This document shows positions 16,632 through 26,905 of a stretch of DNA of 34,423 nt, one piece after another. The position numbers and the translations under genes are program-made. The first letter of the stretch is position 1, and the number at the start of each line of letters is the position of its first letter. The DNA is from Methanomicrobiales archaeon (GTDB lineage Archaea; Halobacteriota; Methanomicrobia; Methanomicrobiales; Methanospirillaceae), in contig JAPKXR010000181.1 of the NCBI GenBank assembly GCA_026394715.1, forward strand, positions 1 through 34,423, in the 5' to 3' direction. Below the pieces are notes generated by a model. The model saw nothing but the letters and a program-made list of their open reading frames with translations, made no database searches and was not told the origin of the DNA.

Positions 16632-17795
<1,164 letters not shown>

Positions 17796-20435
17796 TTATA
17801 CCTCCTCCTTCAGGACACTTTCAACAATCCCTTTTACGTCCACCGGGTCACCAAAGCAGCTCTTCATGGGATCGGTCCCGTCTTCACCATACGTGAACTG
17901 GATGATTCGACCGCCGGTCGTCCTGACAGTCCCGTCATACGCTACCTTCAGGTCCTGTAAGGCATTGATCATACGCCGCTGCAGGTACCCACTCTGGGAT
18001 GTCCTGACTGCCGTGTCCACAAGCCCTTCACGACCACCAATTGCATGGAAGAAAAACTCCGTGGGATTAAGCCCACCCTTGTAGCTGTGTTTAATAAACC
18101 CGTGGGCATCTGATCCCCGGTCCCCCTTCTTGAAATGGGGGAGCGTCCGGTCATCGTACCCACGCATAATACGCTCTCCACGGACGGACTGCTGGCCGAC
18201 ACAGCCTGCCATCTGGGTCAGGTTCAGCATTGAACCCCTTGCACCACTCACCGCCATCACCACGGCACTATTCCCGAGTCCGAGGTGACGGCCGGCAATC
18301 TCACCAGTCCGGTCACGGGCTTTCCCAAGGACCTGCATGATCTGCATTTCAAGGGTCTCTTCGGGAGTACGGCCGGGCATAGGTTCAAGCTGCCCGTCTT
18401 CGTAGATGCGTATTCTTTTTTGTACATCCATCACGGCACCGTCAAGGACCTCGGCAATCTGCCCGTATTCGGTCTTCGAGAGGTCTTCATCATCGATACC
18501 AAACGAGAACCCATCCAGCATGATCGAACGGATGGAGAGCTTCGTCATATCGTCGATGAAATCTGCGGCACGTTTCATCCCATTCTGCCGGATGATGCGC
18601 TGGACAATCTGGCCGTCAAATGCACCGATGGCCTTCTTGTCAATTGTGCCTGAAATAAGATTTCCATTGATTATCTGTACATACGCGTCTCGTTCGCACG
18701 TGTCCCGCTTGCAGATATCACAATTTGCACATGAACTTGCTTTGAAGACCATGTTCAACCCATCGGGTAATATTACGGAGAATGCCTGCTTGTTGGTCCA
18801 CATCGGGACCCCGTCCTCTTCCTTCACAGGAGGTGGAAGGTGTTCGATGTCGGTAGACTTCAGCAGGTAGAGGATATCCTCGCGTGTGAACCAGCGGACC
18901 TGGTTGGTGAGCATGAATACCCCCGATATGTGGTCATGGATACCTCCGATAATCGGGCCTCCAAAACGGGGCGAGAGGATATTTTCCTGTACGGCAACAA
19001 GTATCGCAGCTTCTGCCCTCGCCTCCTGAGTCTGGGGGATATGGAGGTTCATTTCATCACCGTCAAAATCAGCGTTGTATGGTGGACATACGGCGGGGTT
19101 CAACCGAAATGTCTTGCCATCCATTACCTTCACACGGTGAGACATGATGCTCATACGGTGAAGGGAAGGCTGCCGGTTGAACAGGACAATATCCCCGTCC
19201 CGAAGATGCCGCTCCACGGTCCATCCAGGCTCAATCATATCAGCGACGGTATCCAGATTTCCTTCCGCAAGGCGGAGCCTGCGTTTGTCAGGCCGGATAA
19301 CATAGTTGGCCCCGCAGGGGTGGTTGAGGGTAGGCCGGTTTGGCCCGTTCCTGGCCATTGTTTTGAGTTCATCAATATTATTCGGCGCTGCATGCACCGG
19401 GATCGACATCTCATTCGCAATTGCCAGAGGGATCCCGACCTGCACCACGCTGAGGTTCGGGTCAGGGGAGATCACGGTACGTGCGGAGAAATTGACCCTC
19501 TTACCAGACAGTGATCCACGGAAACGCCCGTCTTTCCCCTTGAGTCGCTGGGAGAGTGTTTTTAAAGGCCTGCCACTGCGGTGGCGAGCCGGCGGGCACC
19601 CTGCTACTTCGTTGTCCATGTAAGTCGTTACATGGTACTGCAGCAATTCCCAGAGGTCTTCAATGATCAGCTGGGGTGCTCCTGCATCCTGGTTTTCCTT
19701 GAACCGCTGGTTGATCCGGATAATATCGACCAGCTTGTGGGTTAAGTCATCTTCAGACCGCTGACCATTCTCAAGGATGATCGACGGGCGCATCGTCACG
19801 GGCGGCACTGGCAGCACGGTAAGAATAGTCCATTCAGGTCGTGCCACATCAGGGTTGATGCCGAGGTGCCGGAGGTCCTCATCCGGTATCTTCTCAAGGC
19901 GGGACCTGATGTCGGCAGGTGTCAGCTTGTGTTCGATCTTTTTGCCTTCCTCAACCTGGACCTCTGAAAACGTCGTCGGCTTCTCGAAGTTGATCTTCAG
20001 CTGCTGCTCCCCGCAATGCGGGCAGACCCGTTCTTTCTTGATGTCTTTTTCCGATAGCACGTCACCTGTCGAGTCTTCGTCCGTCCCGACAACTTTTTCA
20101 ATCTCTTCAGGGGAAAGCAGGAGCCGCGAGCAGCTCTTGCACGTCACACGGAGGAGTTTTCTGATCAGGCGCGTATACCCGACATGGATGACCGGTTTTG
20201 CAAGTTCAATATGTCCGAAATGTCCGGGGCATTCGCTGGCCTTCTGGTCGCAGGTCTTGCATCGCAGGCCGGGGTCGATTACGCCGAGGTTTAAGTCCAT
20301 GAGTCCCTGCGGATACGGGAAACCATCATCATCGTAGGTATCAGCCCAGATAATCTTCCGTACACTCATCGTCCTGAACTCTTTCGGGGAGAGCAGGCCG
20401 AATTCAATTTTTCCTATTCTTTTTGGGCTTGTCAT
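17796..20435 (-). CDS. rpoA1: DNA-directed RNA polymerase subunit A'
   Basis: The 879-residue largest subunit part contains the catalytic NADFDGD motif at 454-460 (D456, D458, D460 bind the active-site magnesium). The N-terminal zinc site is C59, C62, C69, H72, and a second zinc site is formed by C99/C102 and C138/C141. The bridge-helix segment HFFHAIGGREGLVDTAV-type sequence lies near the C-terminus (EFFFHAIGGREGLVDTAVRT). A four-cysteine cluster CANCDICKRDTC at 569-580 is also present. The start follows GGAGGGG. It is 10 bp after rpoB' in the operon. Confidence 0.98.
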   Translation of the reverse strand: MTSPKRIGKIEFGLLSPKEFRTMSVRKIIWADTYDDDGFPYPQGLMDLNLGVIDPGLRCKTCDQKASECPGHFGHIELAKPVIHVGYTRLIRKLLRVTCKSCSRLLLSPEEIEKVVGTDEDSTGDVLSEKDIKKERVCPHCGEQQLKINFEKPTTFSEVQVEEGKKIEHKLTPADIRSRLEKIPDEDLRHLGINPDVARPEWTILTVLPVPPVTMRPSIILENGQRSEDDLTHKLVDIIRINQRFKENQDAGAPQLIIEDLWELLQYHVTTYMDNEVAGCPPARHRSGRPLKTLSQRLKGKDGRFRGSLSGKRVNFSARTVISPDPNLSVVQVGIPLAIANEMSIPVHAAPNNIDELKTMARNGPNRPTLNHPCGANYVIRPDKRRLRLAEGNLDTVADMIEPGWTVERHLRDGDIVLFNRQPSLHRMSIMSHRVKVMDGKTFRLNPAVCPPYNADFDGDEMNLHIPQTQEARAEAAILVAVQENILSPRFGGPIIGGIHDHISGVFMLTNQVRWFTREDILYLLKSTDIEHLPPPVKEEDGVPMWTNKQAFSVILPDGLNMVFKASSCANCDICKRDTCERDAYVQIINGNLISGTIDKKAIGAFDGQIVQRIIRQNGMKRAADFIDDMTKLSIRSIMLDGFSFGIDDEDLSKTEYGQIAEVLDGAVMDVQKRIRIYEDGQLEPMPGRTPEETLEMQIMQVLGKARDRTGEIAGRHLGLGNSAVVMAVSGARGSMLNLTQMAGCVGQQSVRGERIMRGYDDRTLPHFKKGDRGSDAHGFIKHSYKGGLNPTEFFFHAIGGREGLVDTAVRTSQSGYLQRRMINALQDLKVAYDGTVRTTGGRIIQFTYGEDGTDPMKSCFGDPVDVKGIVESVLKEEV

Positions 20436-20445
20436 GATTCCCCTC

Positions 20446-22260
20446 CTACACCACGTCCTCTAATTTCAGCCTGGGCGCGATACCCATGCTCTTCATCTCA
20501 TCGAGGAGCAGCTTAAACGCATAACTCATCTCGACAGGGTAGATATCGGTCTCGCTCCCACAAGCCAGGCATCGCGTGGAATTGGATTTACGGTCGAGCA
20601 TCGCGATCATCCCGCAATGGGCACAGACGTATTCAGTTACTTTATCGGATTCGTCGAGCAGACGCTCTTTCAACGCCATCGCGGCACCGTGTCCGATCAT
20701 CACATCACGTTCCATCTCACCGAACCGGAGACCACCTTCACGGGCTCTCCCTTCAGTAGGCTGGCGCGTAAGGACCTGTACCGGCCCGCGGGAGCGGGCG
20801 TGCATCTTTGAAGAAACCATGTGATAGAGCTTCTGGTAATAGATTACACCGACGTAGATATCTGCGTTGAACTGTTTCCCGGTGATACCGTCGTGCATTA
20901 TCTCACGACCGTTATGAGAGAAGCCGAGTTTCTTGAGCGAACCCCGTATATCTGCCTCGATCTCCCCGCTAAAAGCGGTGCCGTTTATTCGGCGTCCTTC
21001 AAGTGCCCCGACTTTCCCTCCAATCATCTCCAGCATGTGACCAACCGTCATACGGCTCGGGATGGCATGCGGGTTGATGACCAGGTCAGGTGCGACTCCT
21101 GCCTCGGTGAAGGGCATATCTTCCTGGGATGCAATAAGTCCGACGACTCCCTTCTGTCCGTGCCTGGACGCGAACTTATCCCCTACTTCGGGGATCCTCA
21201 AATCCCTCGTGCGAACTTTAACCAGGCGGGAACTGTTCTCACCTTCGGTGATGATCACCGTGTCAACAATCCCATGCTCGTTGCTCCGCATGGTAACTGA
21301 TGTATCTCGCCGTTTTTCGACAGTAATCAGGTCACTGGTAGGCTCTTCCAGGAACCGCGGCGGAGAAGTCTTCCCAATCAGGACATCCTTTTCAGCAACG
21401 ACCGTCTCCGGGTTGATCACCCCGTCTTCATCAAGGTTCTTATAAGAATCCGCACCGTGGGCACCCGTCACTTCTTCGTCGGGTACCTCAATCCGGTCAA
21501 TCTGCCCACCGGGATAACGGCGTTCTTCTCCTTCGTACGTCCTGAAGAAATGAGACCTGCCGAGGCCCCGGTCTATCGATGCCTTGTTGAAAATCAACGC
21601 ATCTTCAATATTGAACCCTTCATAACTCAAAACGGCAACGACGTAATTTTGTCCGGCCGGGCGGTCATCAGAGCCAATCAGTTCTGATGCCTGGGTATGC
21701 GTGAGAGGCTTCTGGGTATAATGGAGCAGGTGCCCCCGGGTATCAGGCCGAAGCTTCATATTTGCATCAGCGAACCCGAGCGCCTGCTTGACCATCCCTG
21801 CACCCATGGTAACACGCGGACTTGCATTGTGTTCCGGGAACGGGACATGTGCGGCACCGATACCGAGAATCAGTGAGGGGTCGATCTCAAGATGTGTATG
21901 TTCGACCGTGATATCATCGGGATTGATCGCGATGAACAGGTCCTCCTCTTCTTCTGCATCAATCAGTTCGATAAAACCCTTCTGAACGAAATAGTTAAAA
22001 TTTATCTCGTTTTTACGAAGTTTTTCAATATCGTCCGGTGTGATCAAAGGTTTTCCATTATGGAGTACTATCAATGGCCTCCGCGCCCTGCCCCTGTCGG
22101 TATGGATCACCACGTCGTTATTAAATTCCTTATATGAGACATTCACTTCGGTGGACAATGCACCCTGACGCCGCAATGCCCGGGTCTGGGCAACAAGGGC
22201 CTTCGGGTCCCCGGCGAGCCCGATTAATGCACCATCAACGAATACTCTTGCTTTTTTCAT
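20446..22260 (-). CDS. rpoB1: DNA-directed RNA polymerase subunit B'
   Basis: The 604-residue C-terminal half of the split beta-like subunit, typical of methanogens, is complete. Visible motifs are [31 protein letters not shown], the late [17 protein letters not shown], and a zinc ribbon (CAHCGM...CLACGS). It forms the hybrid-binding side of the active centre with A'. Its ATG overlaps the rpoB'' stop as ATGA, so its translation would be coupled to the downstream part of rpoB''. This matters because rpoB'' is frameshifted in this sequence. Confidence 0.98.
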
Positions 22261-22721
22261 CTGGTATCCCCCTTGATCTGGTCTACACCAAGGCCGTAGA
22301 GTATCCGGACCACTTCTGCCTCATCAGTAACACCTTTACTGACTTCAACCATCTGGGCGAAATTCTTGACAAGTCCACAATTTGGCCCTTCAGGGGTCTC
22401 ACTCGGGCAGATCCTGCCCCATTGTGTCGGGTGAAGGTCACGCGCCTCGAAATGGGGCTGAGAACGGGAGAGCGGAGAGATTACACGGCGCAGGTGCGAA
22501 AGCACGCTCATGTGATCGACACGGTCGAGCAGCTGGGAAACACCAGTCCTGCCGCCGACCCAGTTCCCGGTGGCTAACGGGTGTAACAGACGCTCGGTGA
22601 GGACATCAGCACGCACTGCGGTACCAATGGAGAGGTCACGGTGCCTCATACTCGCCCGCTCAAGCTGGTACTTGATATCCCGTGTAAGACGGTTGAGGGA
22701 AATGCGGAAAAGGTCCTCCAT
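22257..22721 (-). CDS. rpoB2: RNA polymerase subunit B'', C-terminal fragment after frameshift
   Basis: This open frame encodes the last third of B'': [33 protein letters not shown]-type lobe sequence ([20 protein letters not shown]), and the [20 protein letters not shown] motif that is invariant in beta-like subunits. Upstream of its first ATG the same frame also encodes LKLAGDL (22740-22722), which belongs to the conserved RNA polymerase sequence. The ATG is therefore internal and the real reading should enter from the preceding fragment. One base must be added near 22740-22744 to join them. Joined, the protein would have about 519 residues, the normal B'' length. It overlaps rpoB' by 4 bases. 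Confidence 0.9.
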
Positions 22722-22738
22722 GAGGTCCCCGGCAAGTT

Positions 22739-23815
22739 TCAGCGTTTGTTGGAGTAATGGTCCTTATCGTCAATCCTGCGCTTGTTCAGCACAAGATCAA
22801 AACAGGCCTCCGCCATCCGCCCTAGGAAATGTCCCTTGGCAAGGCGTACACTCTCAACCGTATCACGGTACCCCTCATCTTCTTCCTTCATGCCAAATGG
22901 CATCAGGTAGTTAAGGTGGGGGAGCAGGTAGTTATCAAGCACGAATTCCGCACGTTTCCGCTGGTAATCTTTTGTCTGGTTCGGTGCAAGTTTCTTACCG
23001 ACATACATGACCCCACTCTCAACGCTGTCACACTCGCTTTCTTCAAGATTCTGCATCATGAAGGTCAGGATGTCCTCGTCCGTCGATACCGCGTTAACGA
23101 CATCGTGATCGCTCACCATCCCAAGTGCTCTCATCAGGTCGACGAACTTGAGGTGTCCGGCCACCGACGGGAACGATACCTCGAGCAGGTTTTTCCTGTT
23201 CCGTTCAACAACAACAAGAGCACGGTACCCGCGGTATTGTGAGAACACCTTTGCGACATAGATCCGTTCGCTATACCGCTCGGTGAATTCCGTCATGATC
23301 TTGTTGGAGGCCAGGTCTTCAAGGGTCATGAGGACTCTTTCAGTCCCGTTGACAATAAAAAAGCCACCGGGGTCATAGGGGTCTTCGCCATGAGTTACCC
23401 GTTCATCATCACTCATGCCGAAGAGGTTGCAGGACGTTGAGCCGATCATGATCGGCAACTGCCCGATCGTGGTCATAATCGGTTCCTGACGGTCTTCCCC
23501 CTGGACAAGGGTGAGTTGAAGTTGAATCGGTGCTGCATACGTCAGGTTACGGAGCCTCGCTTCGCTTGGAAACAGGTCCCCCTGTGACCCGTCCGCTTCA
23601 CGGACGAGCGGTTTTCGTACCTCGATTTTCCCTAATTCAACCCACACCGGTATATTACTTTTGCCACGGATCTCGATATCTGTCTCGATTACCCGCTGCT
23701 CGTTCACAACTTTCTGGAGGTTGCGAAAAAGAAAATTGTTGTAGGAGTCAAGTTGGTGGCGCGCCACATGCTCCCGTGAAAAATATGCCCTTGATAAAAT
23801 GCTTCTGTCGATCAG
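22739..23815 (-). CDS. rpoB2: RNA polymerase subunit B'', N-terminal fragment ending at a frameshift
   Basis: This fragment carries the protrusion and first lobe: YFSREHVARHQLDSYNNFLF, VNGTERVLMTLEDLASNKI, and the end LNKRRIDDKDHYSNKR followed by a TGA at 22739-22741. In homologues the sequence continues into [12 protein letters not shown], which is found here in the neighbouring frame. The frame is open upstream of a GTG at 23767 to just after rpoH, and the residues there (IDRSILSRAYFSREH) look like genuine B'' N-terminus. No ATG, GTG or TTG is present in this extension. CTG at 23815, nine bases after GGGAG, is my preferred start. ATA at 23821 is an alternative. Confidence 0.9.
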   Translation of the reverse strand: MIDRSILSRAYFSREHVARHQLDSYNNFLFRNLQKVVNEQRVIETDIEIRGKSNIPVWVELGKIEVRKPLVREADGSQGDLFPSEARLRNLTYAAPIQLQLTLVQGEDRQEPIMTTIGQLPIMIGSTSCNLFGMSDDERVTHGEDPYDPGGFFIVNGTERVLMTLEDLASNKIMTEFTERYSERIYVAKVFSQYRGYRALVVVERNRKNLLEVSFPSVAGHLKFVDLMRALGMVSDHDVVNAVSTDEDILTFMMQNLEESECDSVESGVMYVGKKLAPNQTKDYQRKRAEFVLDNYLLPHLNYLMPFGMKEEDEGYRDTVESVRLAKGHFLGRMAEACFDLVLNKRRIDDKDHYSNKR

Positions 23816-24083: not shown

Positions 24084-24164
24084 TTAAAAAACCCCCTCTT
24101 CCATAAATTTGCGTCTCCTCCAGATGCATCACTAAATAAAAACCCACAGGCTGTACCGTGGCAG

Positions 24165-24238
24165 CGGGCCCGGAGGGATTTGAACCCCCGACCACCTGGT
24201 TAAAAGCCAGGCGCTCTACCTAACTGAGCTACGAACCC
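24165..24238 (-). tRNA. tRNA-Lys (anticodon TTT)
   Basis: Read on the minus strand, acceptor GGGTTCG pairs with CGGGCCC and the discriminator is G. The anticodon stem CCTGG/CCAGG encloses CTTTTAA with anticodon TTT. The T arm contains GTTCAAAT. The length is 74 nt with no intron and no encoded CCA. It lies 81 bp upstream of rpoH on the same strand. Confidence 0.95.
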
Positions 24239-24535: not shown

Positions 24536-25813
24536 ATGACTGATGCCTACAAATTACAAGCCCTTCCTGCTGAAGAGAGTCTTTTTAAACCACAAATAAT
24601 AAATAATGGCTACGCAATGACCGATCTGATTCGCTGGCTAAATAAAAACCGCACCTCTTTTCAGCCTGACGAATCGTTCTCGGTCCGTGCCATCCGCCAC
24701 ATTAGTAATGTCGAGCGGACCAAGTTATTTTCCCCTGAAATCGAACATATGCGGACCGCTGAAGGGAGGTGGTTTGAAGCGATCGTATACGAGATGTTCC
24801 TGGATGCAGCAGAGACCACCGATGAAATTGGCGGGGTGGCAGTGAAGGGGGCAGATGCTCCACGGGGAAGAAGGAATATACAACTTGGCCAGAATGGTTT
24901 TTTTTATTCAAGAAATGGGGATATTACCATCCGTGGTAATGGCCAGGACCTCGCGGAATTTGACCTGCTGCTGGTTGACCGTAACAAACGGATCGCTTTT
25001 GGGGAGGTCGTTACTTCACCATCAGATTTAAAAGAATTCGAAATAGAGGTCGAATATAAAAAAAGGCTTCTTGGATATCTTTTTGCCCAGCCGAGCGTGC
25101 CATTCCTGTTGATTTCATCCTTTGATATTTCACATTTTTCCGTAGTACGCCGGATGATGAAATCAAGAGATAATATTAATATCCAGACAATTACCTGTGA
25201 ACAGATAAAAGCCCTGGTAAACACGAGAGGTCCGGTGCAGGAGTTCACGCGAACCCGGACTCATAAAAAAGCATTTCTGGCAACAGATCTTGTCCAGAAG
25301 AAGCCGTTTGAGTACCTTCAATACCATGACTGGGAGAGAAACAAGGTCTTTTTGCAGGTAAGCAACCGGGTCAATGTCAGGAACGCACCAACAGTCGGGG
25401 AAACCACCGTGCTTGTTAAAAAAATACTCTACGGCGGGCTGTATCCTTCTGCGATAAAATCCCTCTGTCAGGAGCATGAGATCAGTATCAGGGGTGAGAA
25501 ACTTGAATTCGCTGACCTGATGCAGAATTTTTCCAAGGTCATTCTTGCAACGGACCTTCCCGGGTATGATCCTATCGTGTATCTTCGGCCCAGAAGAAAA
25601 CGGGAATACCTTAAAATGGTCCAGGATAAAGAGGGGAATTTCAAATATGAACGCCGGACACCACCAAAAGTCGGGTTCTTTCTCTGGCTCGAGTCCCTGG
25701 CACCCACGCTGGGTTCACGGATCACCCACCAGATCCTTGAATCATTTTCACCGGCGAAAGGTAATGAGGAGGGAGAGAAACCCGTAAAAGGGGCCATGGA
25801 ACGCCAGAATTGA
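24536..25813 (+). CDS. Orphan 425-residue protein with a PD-(D/E)XK-like pattern
   Basis: I recognise no named family. The N-terminal half has an arrangement typical of PD-(D/E)XK nucleases: a helix with E81 (EGRWFEAIVYEMFLDA), D143 in the strand EFDLLLVDRN, and E157 in RIAFGEVVTS. Then comes a helix (EYKKRLLGYLFAQ) and a hydrophobic strand (VPFLLISSFDIS). The usual lysine after the second acid (E-x-K) is valine, so the enzyme may be divergent or inactive. Residues 240-425 are basic and contain YLRPRRKREYLKM, with a glutamate/lysine-rich tail. The gene stands alone between tRNA-Lys and a decayed region, which could suit a DNA-processing or defence role, but no partner gene supports this. Confidence 0.75.
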   Translation: MTDAYKLQALPAEESLFKPQIINNGYAMTDLIRWLNKNRTSFQPDESFSVRAIRHISNVERTKLFSPEIEHMRTAEGRWFEAIVYEMFLDAAETTDEIGGVAVKGADAPRGRRNIQLGQNGFFYSRNGDITIRGNGQDLAEFDLLLVDRNKRIAFGEVVTSPSDLKEFEIEVEYKKRLLGYLFAQPSVPFLLISSFDISHFSVVRRMMKSRDNINIQTITCEQIKALVNTRGPVQEFTRTRTHKKAFLATDLVQKKPFEYLQYHDWERNKVFLQVSNRVNVRNAPTVGETTVLVKKILYGGLYPSAIKSLCQEHEISIRGEKLEFADLMQNFSKVILATDLPGYDPIVYLRPRRKREYLKMVQDKEGNFKYERRTPPKVGFFLWLESLAPTLGSRITHQILESFSPAKGNEEGEKPVKGAMERQN

Positions 25814-25934: not shown

Positions 25935-26905
25935 TTGATCAGGTTAGATCGGACACCCGTATCGTTCGTTTTATGCAGAAGTATTATTGTTTCTGTCTGC
26001 CGGGTTTCAGGTTGTACATCGGCCCAGGGAAAGATGGGCCCTGCGACCCCGGTTACAGTTATTCCAGAGACTTCGTGGACTATTGTTACACCAAGTGTCA
26101 TGCAATGGACAAAACCATCCCTTAATCTTACGATGGATAAAAACGTCGAAATCGCATGCAGGAGAATAGTCCCCTCGTCTTTTTCAGTCAGGGACAAGGG
26201 GCCGTGACCCTGTTAAACAGACCGTCCGTTTAAAATTGACCGTGAAAAATGCTGGTAACGAGACGGTCGCCGAACTCGAGAAAAAAACTATCGGGTTATA
26301 CGCTGCAGATCGGCCAGGAAAGAAGTATAGTATACCCACCCTTGTTGCGCTGATGGGGCTTAAACCAGAATAAATATGAAGGGGTACTGTTGTAATTGTG
26401 AATGTCCCGGACTATACCCTTTTGTGGTCTCGTATTCCACTCCTGGTTCGGCAACGAGGACGCATCCAGGGTGATCATCCCGGAAACACCTTTTATAATA
26501 AACCCAGGGAGAACAGGACACCAGGAATTTTTCGGCTTTTTCTCTGGGCCCGGAATTATTTCTCCCGGTATCCCCCAATTGTTTGGAATACTACCATTTA
26601 CAATTTGCAATGACCCGTCTCCAGGAAAACAGGTGAACCCGGCATGGTTGCCAGGAATTGAGGGACAACTTCTTTTCAATCCAGCCATTGGTATACTCAA
26701 TGCCCGGATGATTTCCCTGTCAATGAAACATTCGGATCTGACCCCGGGTCAGGTCACCTGATCACCGATAGCGTTACCCTGACAGTGTGGCAGAGGCAGC
26801 AGACGGGCGAGCGCTCATCAGGCCCTGAAAATCCCGGTTACCGTCAGGGATAAACCGGAAGATCTTATCCCATGCAGACCAGGTTACAAAAAAAGGACCA
26901 CGGTA
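25935..26905 (+). pseudogene. Probable remnant of a secreted/surface protein gene
   Basis: Coding-like pieces appear in different plus-strand frames separated by stops. The first is a T/P-rich piece (ATPVTVIPETSWTIVTPS, then LNLTMDKNVEI) at about 26038-26160. The second, at 26227-26373, is RLKLTVKNAGNETVAELEKK followed by TIGLYAADRPGKK and a stop. Further pieces include GTVVIVNVPDYTLL at about 26380-26425 and KIPVTVRDKPEDLI near 26825. The KNxGNETV pattern recalls CARDB-like beta-sandwich domains of archaeal surface proteins. This suggests a gene broken by several indels, but I cannot align it, so certainty is low. Confidence 0.35.

Follow-up and report, generated by a model that had tools for sequence, protein, structure and literature searches.

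The window analysed here, a 34,423-nucleotide stretch of DNA from a Methanomicrobiales archaeon, includes at 24536–25813 on the + strand a listed open reading frame of 425 aa. Its product has acidic residues arranged as in PD-(D/E)XK nucleases and a hydrophobic residue where the catalytic lysine would be expected, and the gene stands beside a tRNA gene. The locus raises the question of whether such a protein is an active enzyme, what has become of the lysine, and whether the gene belongs to its host lineage or was acquired by it.

The gene and its predicted domains

The listed frame begins 27 codons upstream of an ATG at 24617 (residue 28 of the frame), which is probably the true start. The first start codon of the frame falls at the equivalent place in two congeners (L002 and L004), and 42 of 68 relatives have no in-frame start before the aligned place; in a third congener (L003), by contrast, the open frame reaches beyond this place on the upstream side. 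Residue numbers below are those of the 425-aa frame, as used in an earlier, sequence-only reading of the locus; trimmed numbers count from ATG 24617 and are lower by 27. The features discussed are as follows.

24617–25813, + strand: probable coding sequence, 398 aa
24617–25225, + strand: predicted N-terminal PD-(D/E)XK nuclease domain (trimmed residues 1–203), from the AlphaFold2 model and PDB matches
25226–25810, + strand: basic C-terminal domain (trimmed residues 204–398), mean pLDDT 87.5 when modelled separately, pI 9.66
24776–24778, + strand: motif I glutamate, E81 (trimmed E54), within the first helix of the core (model residues 42–67)
24956–24964, + strand: motif II, E141-F-D143 (trimmed E114, D116), where model strand 110–115 ends
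25004–25012, + strand: motif III, E157-V-V159 (trimmed E130, V132), acid retained and lysine place hydrophobic
25046–25060, + strand: motif IV helix, E171-xxx-K175 (trimmed E144, K148), on model helix 138–155, with K175 the proposed relocated lysine
24164–24238, − strand: neighbouring tRNA-Lys(ttt), called by ARAGORN

The window protein matched no Pfam family at E values up to 1, and nothing in NCBIfam or PHROGs. When all 49 aligned members were searched against Pfam, six families came up, none in more than two members (best E 0.0096), which we took as chance. PADLOC returned a single weak match of the window protein, to CARF_PDDEXK (E 0.0012), covering only profile positions 220–293 of 361. 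The same profile was matched by 16/49 aligned members (best E 2.5e-4), which is weak sequence support.

An AlphaFold2 model built from 49 sequences had a mean pLDDT of 91.6 and a pTM of 0.89, with a helix at residues 42–67, strands between 103 and 132, a helix at 138–155 and a strand at 163–167. The best Foldseek match in the PDB was Card1 (E 6.6e-4, probability 1.00), with a modest superposition (TM-score 0.23–0.24, rmsd 6.9; TM-scores for Card1 run up to 0.27). VIA-align placed VC1899 at the top (Z 8.9, 114 residues, rmsd 2.7), followed by Card1 (Z 8.4, 146 residues, rmsd 5.8), CRISPR ancillary nuclease 2 (Can2; Z 8.3, 117 residues, rmsd 3.3) and EndoMS/NucS (Z 7.7, 116 residues, rmsd 3.4, and Z 7.6); a top Z of 7 to 8 is typical even of models that match nothing clearly, and these scores alone are thin. 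The matches cover mainly model residues 17–201. The case for the fold holds despite the thin scores, because the best matches are what we take to be known nucleases of the PD-(D/E)XK fold and the motif residues lie on the expected structural elements. The nuclease-type sheet that the sequence-only reading had called for is predicted, and the fold search, with its best PDB matches to Card1, VC1899, Can2 and NucS at modest scores, supports a divergent PD-(D/E)XK fold for the modelled N-terminal domain. A viral fold library gave a best E of 0.013 and no match at 0.001, and a PDB sequence search with the alignment returned nothing at E values up to 10.

The C-terminal half had been described as basic and without a recognised domain, and so it proved, with a pI of 9.66 and no family match. 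Its computed pI exceeds 8.5 in 39 of 43 aligned rows, the window protein included, and the domain is conserved, with G273, W357 and other residues at at least 99%. Searched against the PDB, the separate model had no clear match (Foldseek best E 0.22, VIA-align best Z 4.4), which is no proof of a new fold. We infer that this basic domain binds nucleic acid. In one 474-aa orthologue (L038) the C terminus runs on into a long basic tail with abundant K, R and P.

Active-site residues and a candidate relocated lysine

The nuclease assignment had rested on E81, D143 and E157. These residues, spaced as in PD-(D/E)XK nucleases, are at the positions claimed, and they are kept in 49/49 aligned rows and in 128/128 distinct full-length rows, so the conservation among homologues proposed as a check was found. 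Because the three acids are invariant in both sets, the sequence pattern is judged to exceed chance. Six residues altogether, E81, E141, D143, E157, E171 and K175 (trimmed E54, E114, D116, E130, E144 and K148), are invariant in the 128 distinct full-length sequences. The 6 or 7 partial rows that extend over these positions show the same residues, E171 and K175 being kept in 7/7, and the active-site residues are retained even in copies only 25–29% identical to the window protein.

The sequence-only reading was equally right about the valine. Residue 159, the lysine place of E-x-K, is V in the window protein, and it is V in 79, I in 40, L in 8 and M in 1 of the 128 full-length rows; the partial rows have I (4), T (2) or A (1), and never lysine. 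The canonical motif III lysine is missing from all 135 rows examined.

The protein has the motif I glutamate, motif II aspartate and motif III glutamate of the superfamily, together with a conserved basic residue in motif IV. In the AlphaFold2 model, helix 138–155, which carries E171 and K175, comes after the motif III strand (126–132). K175, which this helix carries, probably serves as a relocated catalytic lysine in place of the one missing from motif III, and from the position of the helix its side chain would point into the site. Migration of the lysine to motif IV is described for DUF506, DUF790 and DUF1626 (PMC1913061).

A similar motif with a canonical lysine turned up in another lineage of the phylum. 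The protein of genome G293, a 999-aa open reading frame (L190:5201–8200), has at its end a similar stretch but a canonical E-T-K; at an E value of 0.0014 only, the parallel is too weak to rely on.

Distribution, inheritance and gene neighbourhood

The gene had been called an orphan, a claim refuted by its presence in 95/101 genomes searched (its own included) and in 79/79 of the good ones (completeness 90% or more, contamination 5% or less). In a class sample, in which every genome is listed as of the same genus, family or order, 175/185 genomes and 134/135 good ones had a match. In a phylum sample (n = 390), the 106 matching genomes comprised 105 Methanomicrobiales and G293, a marginal match (E 0.0014). 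The split is 105/106 for order members versus 1/284, marginal, for all others, assuming that the 264 misses without individual listing lie outside the order; G159 is the listed miss within it. Misses within the order numbered 6/101 and 10/185, only one of the ten (G159) being a good genome, and likely reflect incomplete assembly; some of the matches counted are fragments (G013, G051). A scan of genome contigs yielded 147 relatives among 478 pattern matches. For the best 80 of the 147, titles name Methanomicrobiales, its genera or families or, in three cases, only 'Euryarchaeota archaeon'; we take the genera named to belong to this order. Among phages, plasmids and viral contigs we found no relative, and the 59 stretches of viral contigs that fitted the pattern yielded no confirmed one. 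The suggested check of distribution across archaea points to a conserved family, near-universal within Methanomicrobiales, and not to a scattered or orphan gene.

Most matching genomes have a single match (79 of 95), and 16 have more. A second long copy occurs in five genomes of family f4 (G063, G073, G078, G088 and G098), and further copies are broken (G083), very divergent (G081) or split by the assembly or a frame break (G082). Eight f6 genomes have an extra short copy consisting of the nuclease domain alone. Nuclease-domain-only paralogues of 217–238 aa, all from one family (L060–L065), lie immediately 3' of a glutamate–tRNA ligase gene; the gap is about −1 to +22 bp in 6/6 loci, the ligase having been identified by model in L064 (E 4.2e-227) and the other five belonging to the same blastp cluster.

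A gene tree of 49 rows, built by a quick method, needed 8 label changes for 9 groups, the minimum, and its rows group by family; neither f1 nor f2 forms one clade, support is weak for 14 of 46 inner branches, the L056 branch is very long and the paralogue labels were assigned by the analyst. Values of dN/dS against three congeners were 0.10–0.13, indicating purifying selection, while against L005, a fourth genome at greater distance, saturation of the synonymous sites left no value. The sequence comparisons indicate that the gene is vertically inherited and near-universal in Methanomicrobiales. The PD-(D/E)XK superfamily is a known one; the Methanomicrobiales family within it is new.

The tRNA gene and the decayed region noted beside the gene do adjoin it, but they had been taken as a sign of acquisition, and that interpretation did not hold. 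Of 40 loci scanned, 12, among them loci of other genera, have a tRNA-Lys upstream within about 1.5 kb (L037, L050, L066, L067, L068, L102, L103, L107, L112, L121, L154 and L177; in L107 and L112 another open reading frame intervenes, and two pairs come from the same genome). One other scanned locus has tRNA-Ala and one tRNA-Leu, both further off, and 26 have none. All 12 tRNA-Lys loci share the polymerase block, that is, tRNA-side neighbours that we read from sequence as RNA polymerase subunit genes. Because tRNA-Lys and this block are shared synteny, the adjoining tRNA is no sign of integration.

On the other side of the gene is a glutamate synthase-like gene (Pfam PF01645). Just upstream of the nuclease gene and on the same strand, a methyltransferase-like gene occurs in 13/13 loci labelled f2, f4 or f6 (L033, L036, L039–L045, L047, L049, L057 and L059), and beside 0/14 loci labelled f1, f3 or f5, f1 being the window's own family. 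The best NCBIfam match of the three such proteins scanned was TIGR01177, at 248.5–262.6 bits (E 1e-73 or better), below its cut-off of 316.55 bits. This family presumably holds tRNA G10 methylases.

Two further observations concern the window itself. Downstream, a decayed stretch at 25992–26490 has 71% identity over 500 bases to an intact 183-aa open reading frame of a congener (L103/L004), with a lipoprotein-like start by eye, and looks like a remnant of that gene. At 22257–23767 on the − strand, a putative RNA polymerase subunit gene is split, with a stop near 22739 after which it resumes in another frame. Congener L102 has an unbroken frame of 503 aa at this place, and the split is probably a sequencing or assembly error of the draft genome.

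Proposed function and comparison with known systems

We propose that the gene encodes an active metal-dependent nuclease with a relocated lysine, a reading that leaves the substrate aside and to which we give a probability of about 0.72. The protein would be a two-domain, metal-dependent phosphodiesterase serving Methanomicrobiales as a vertically inherited housekeeping enzyme. E81, E141, D143 and E157 would bind a divalent metal, K175 would position the attacking water in place of the absent motif III lysine, and the basic C-terminal domain would grip nucleic acid and set specificity.

The neighbouring genes hint at a substrate. Because a TIGR01177-like gene lies upstream in f2, f4 and f6 and the short paralogue lies 3' of glutamate–tRNA ligase, we lean tentatively, at somewhat under even odds, towards an RNA substrate connected with tRNA or translation and away from DNA. 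A nuclease of the same kind acting on DNA in repair or recombination, like NucS/EndoMS or Card1, would be a sub-case of the relocated-lysine enzyme and is only slightly less likely. EndoMS/NucS (Z 7.7 and 7.6) and Card1/Can2 are among the closest solved folds, and the order members sampled lack a strong NucS match, so a repair niche may be open; the named neighbours, however, include no repair gene (most neighbours are unnamed), and Holliday-junction resolution is covered in all 28 genomes, by RuvC (19) or an Hjc-like protein (9).

Whether the site works at all, and whether the gene is native, bear on the proposal more directly. A fold kept for binding after the lost lysine had abolished catalysis would account for the canonical lysine missing in 135/135 rows, but residues of a site without function should drift, and six residues are invariant in 128/128 full-length sequences; lysine migration is moreover known in other families (PMC1913061). 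We consider such a non-catalytic relic quite improbable. As for the gene being an orphan, or a mobile or defence gene gained horizontally at a tRNA, which was broadly how the locus had been read from sequence, the adjoining tRNA-Lys, the weak PADLOC similarity to defence nucleases and a gene G+C of 0.474, below the 0.493 of the window and the 0.532 of 16632–23767, would fit it. Against these stand the near-universal presence in the order (134/135 good genomes), a tree that groups rows by family, tRNA-Lys upstream in other genera too, and no relative in phages, plasmids or viral contigs, so that we set its likelihood close to nil. The most far-reaching form of our proposal is an order-specific core nuclease of RNA processing or tRNA surveillance that arose at the base of Methanomicrobiales, combines a relocated lysine with a C-terminal RNA-binding domain of new fold, and is indispensable to the order; in all its parts together it seems unlikely.

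The repair genes were surveyed in 117 genomes of the phylum, 28 of them order members. Hjc had no strong match in the 28 and weak ones in 10 (best E 2.7e-5). RuvC was found in 19/28, and the remaining 9 have a divergent Hjc-like protein, so that no genome lacks both; one RuvC genome (G073) also has a broken Hjc-like copy, and in the window's own genome the site of this Hjc/RuvC observation is G000:C33:8582–9031. Among control genomes RuvC matched only bacteria, but 8 genomes from elsewhere in the phylum gave matches too. Holliday-junction resolvases look to have been swapped within the order. Because all 28 hold RuvC (19) or the Hjc-like protein (9), the window nuclease is not needed as a resolvase, and its replacing Hjc is ruled out. 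NucS gave weak matches in 7/28 order members (best E 2.1e-6; four at 24.1–28.5 bits against a cut-off of 24), and a strong match is also missing from many genomes outside the order, so the window nuclease as a NucS replacement stays a lead only. NurA matches in 21/28 order members (E 3.3e-13 to 3.2e-4) settle nothing.

A literature search of titles and the starts of abstracts found no description of this protein. PMC2686161 counts 62 signature clusters that occur in this order alone; 26 are hypothetical, and the protein may be among the clusters. If the proposal is right, a major methanogen order has a near-universal enzyme with no Pfam, NCBIfam or PHROGs match and only a weak PADLOC one. The family offers an order-wide conserved case for testing a helix lysine as a substitute for the motif III lysine, and with the nuclease comes a conserved C-terminal domain to which the PDB offers no clear counterpart.

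Among known systems, Card1, Can2, Cdn1 and VC1899 are the best fold matches to the N-terminal domain, with the weak PADLOC CARF_PDDEXK similarity besides; VC1899 we take to be a CARF-fused PD-(D/E)XK effector. The window protein differs from the Card1/Can2 group in having its nuclease domain N-terminal, a basic, unmatched C-terminal domain, no reported CARF match and no motif III lysine, and in being a core gene of one order whereas theirs are scattered defence genes. NucS/EndoMS is also a fold match and is an archaeal housekeeping enzyme, but NucS carries E-x-K and the window protein does not hit Pfam NucS_C at E values up to 1. Hjc belongs to the same PD-(D/E)XK superfamily (PMC1913061), but the window protein does not match Pfam PF01870 at E values up to 1. 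The window protein has no Pfam match to DUF506, DUF790 or DUF1626, and none of the three came up in the Pfam results for the 49 members, but these families resemble it in having the motif III lysine replaced and a conserved basic residue on the following helix (PMC1913061).
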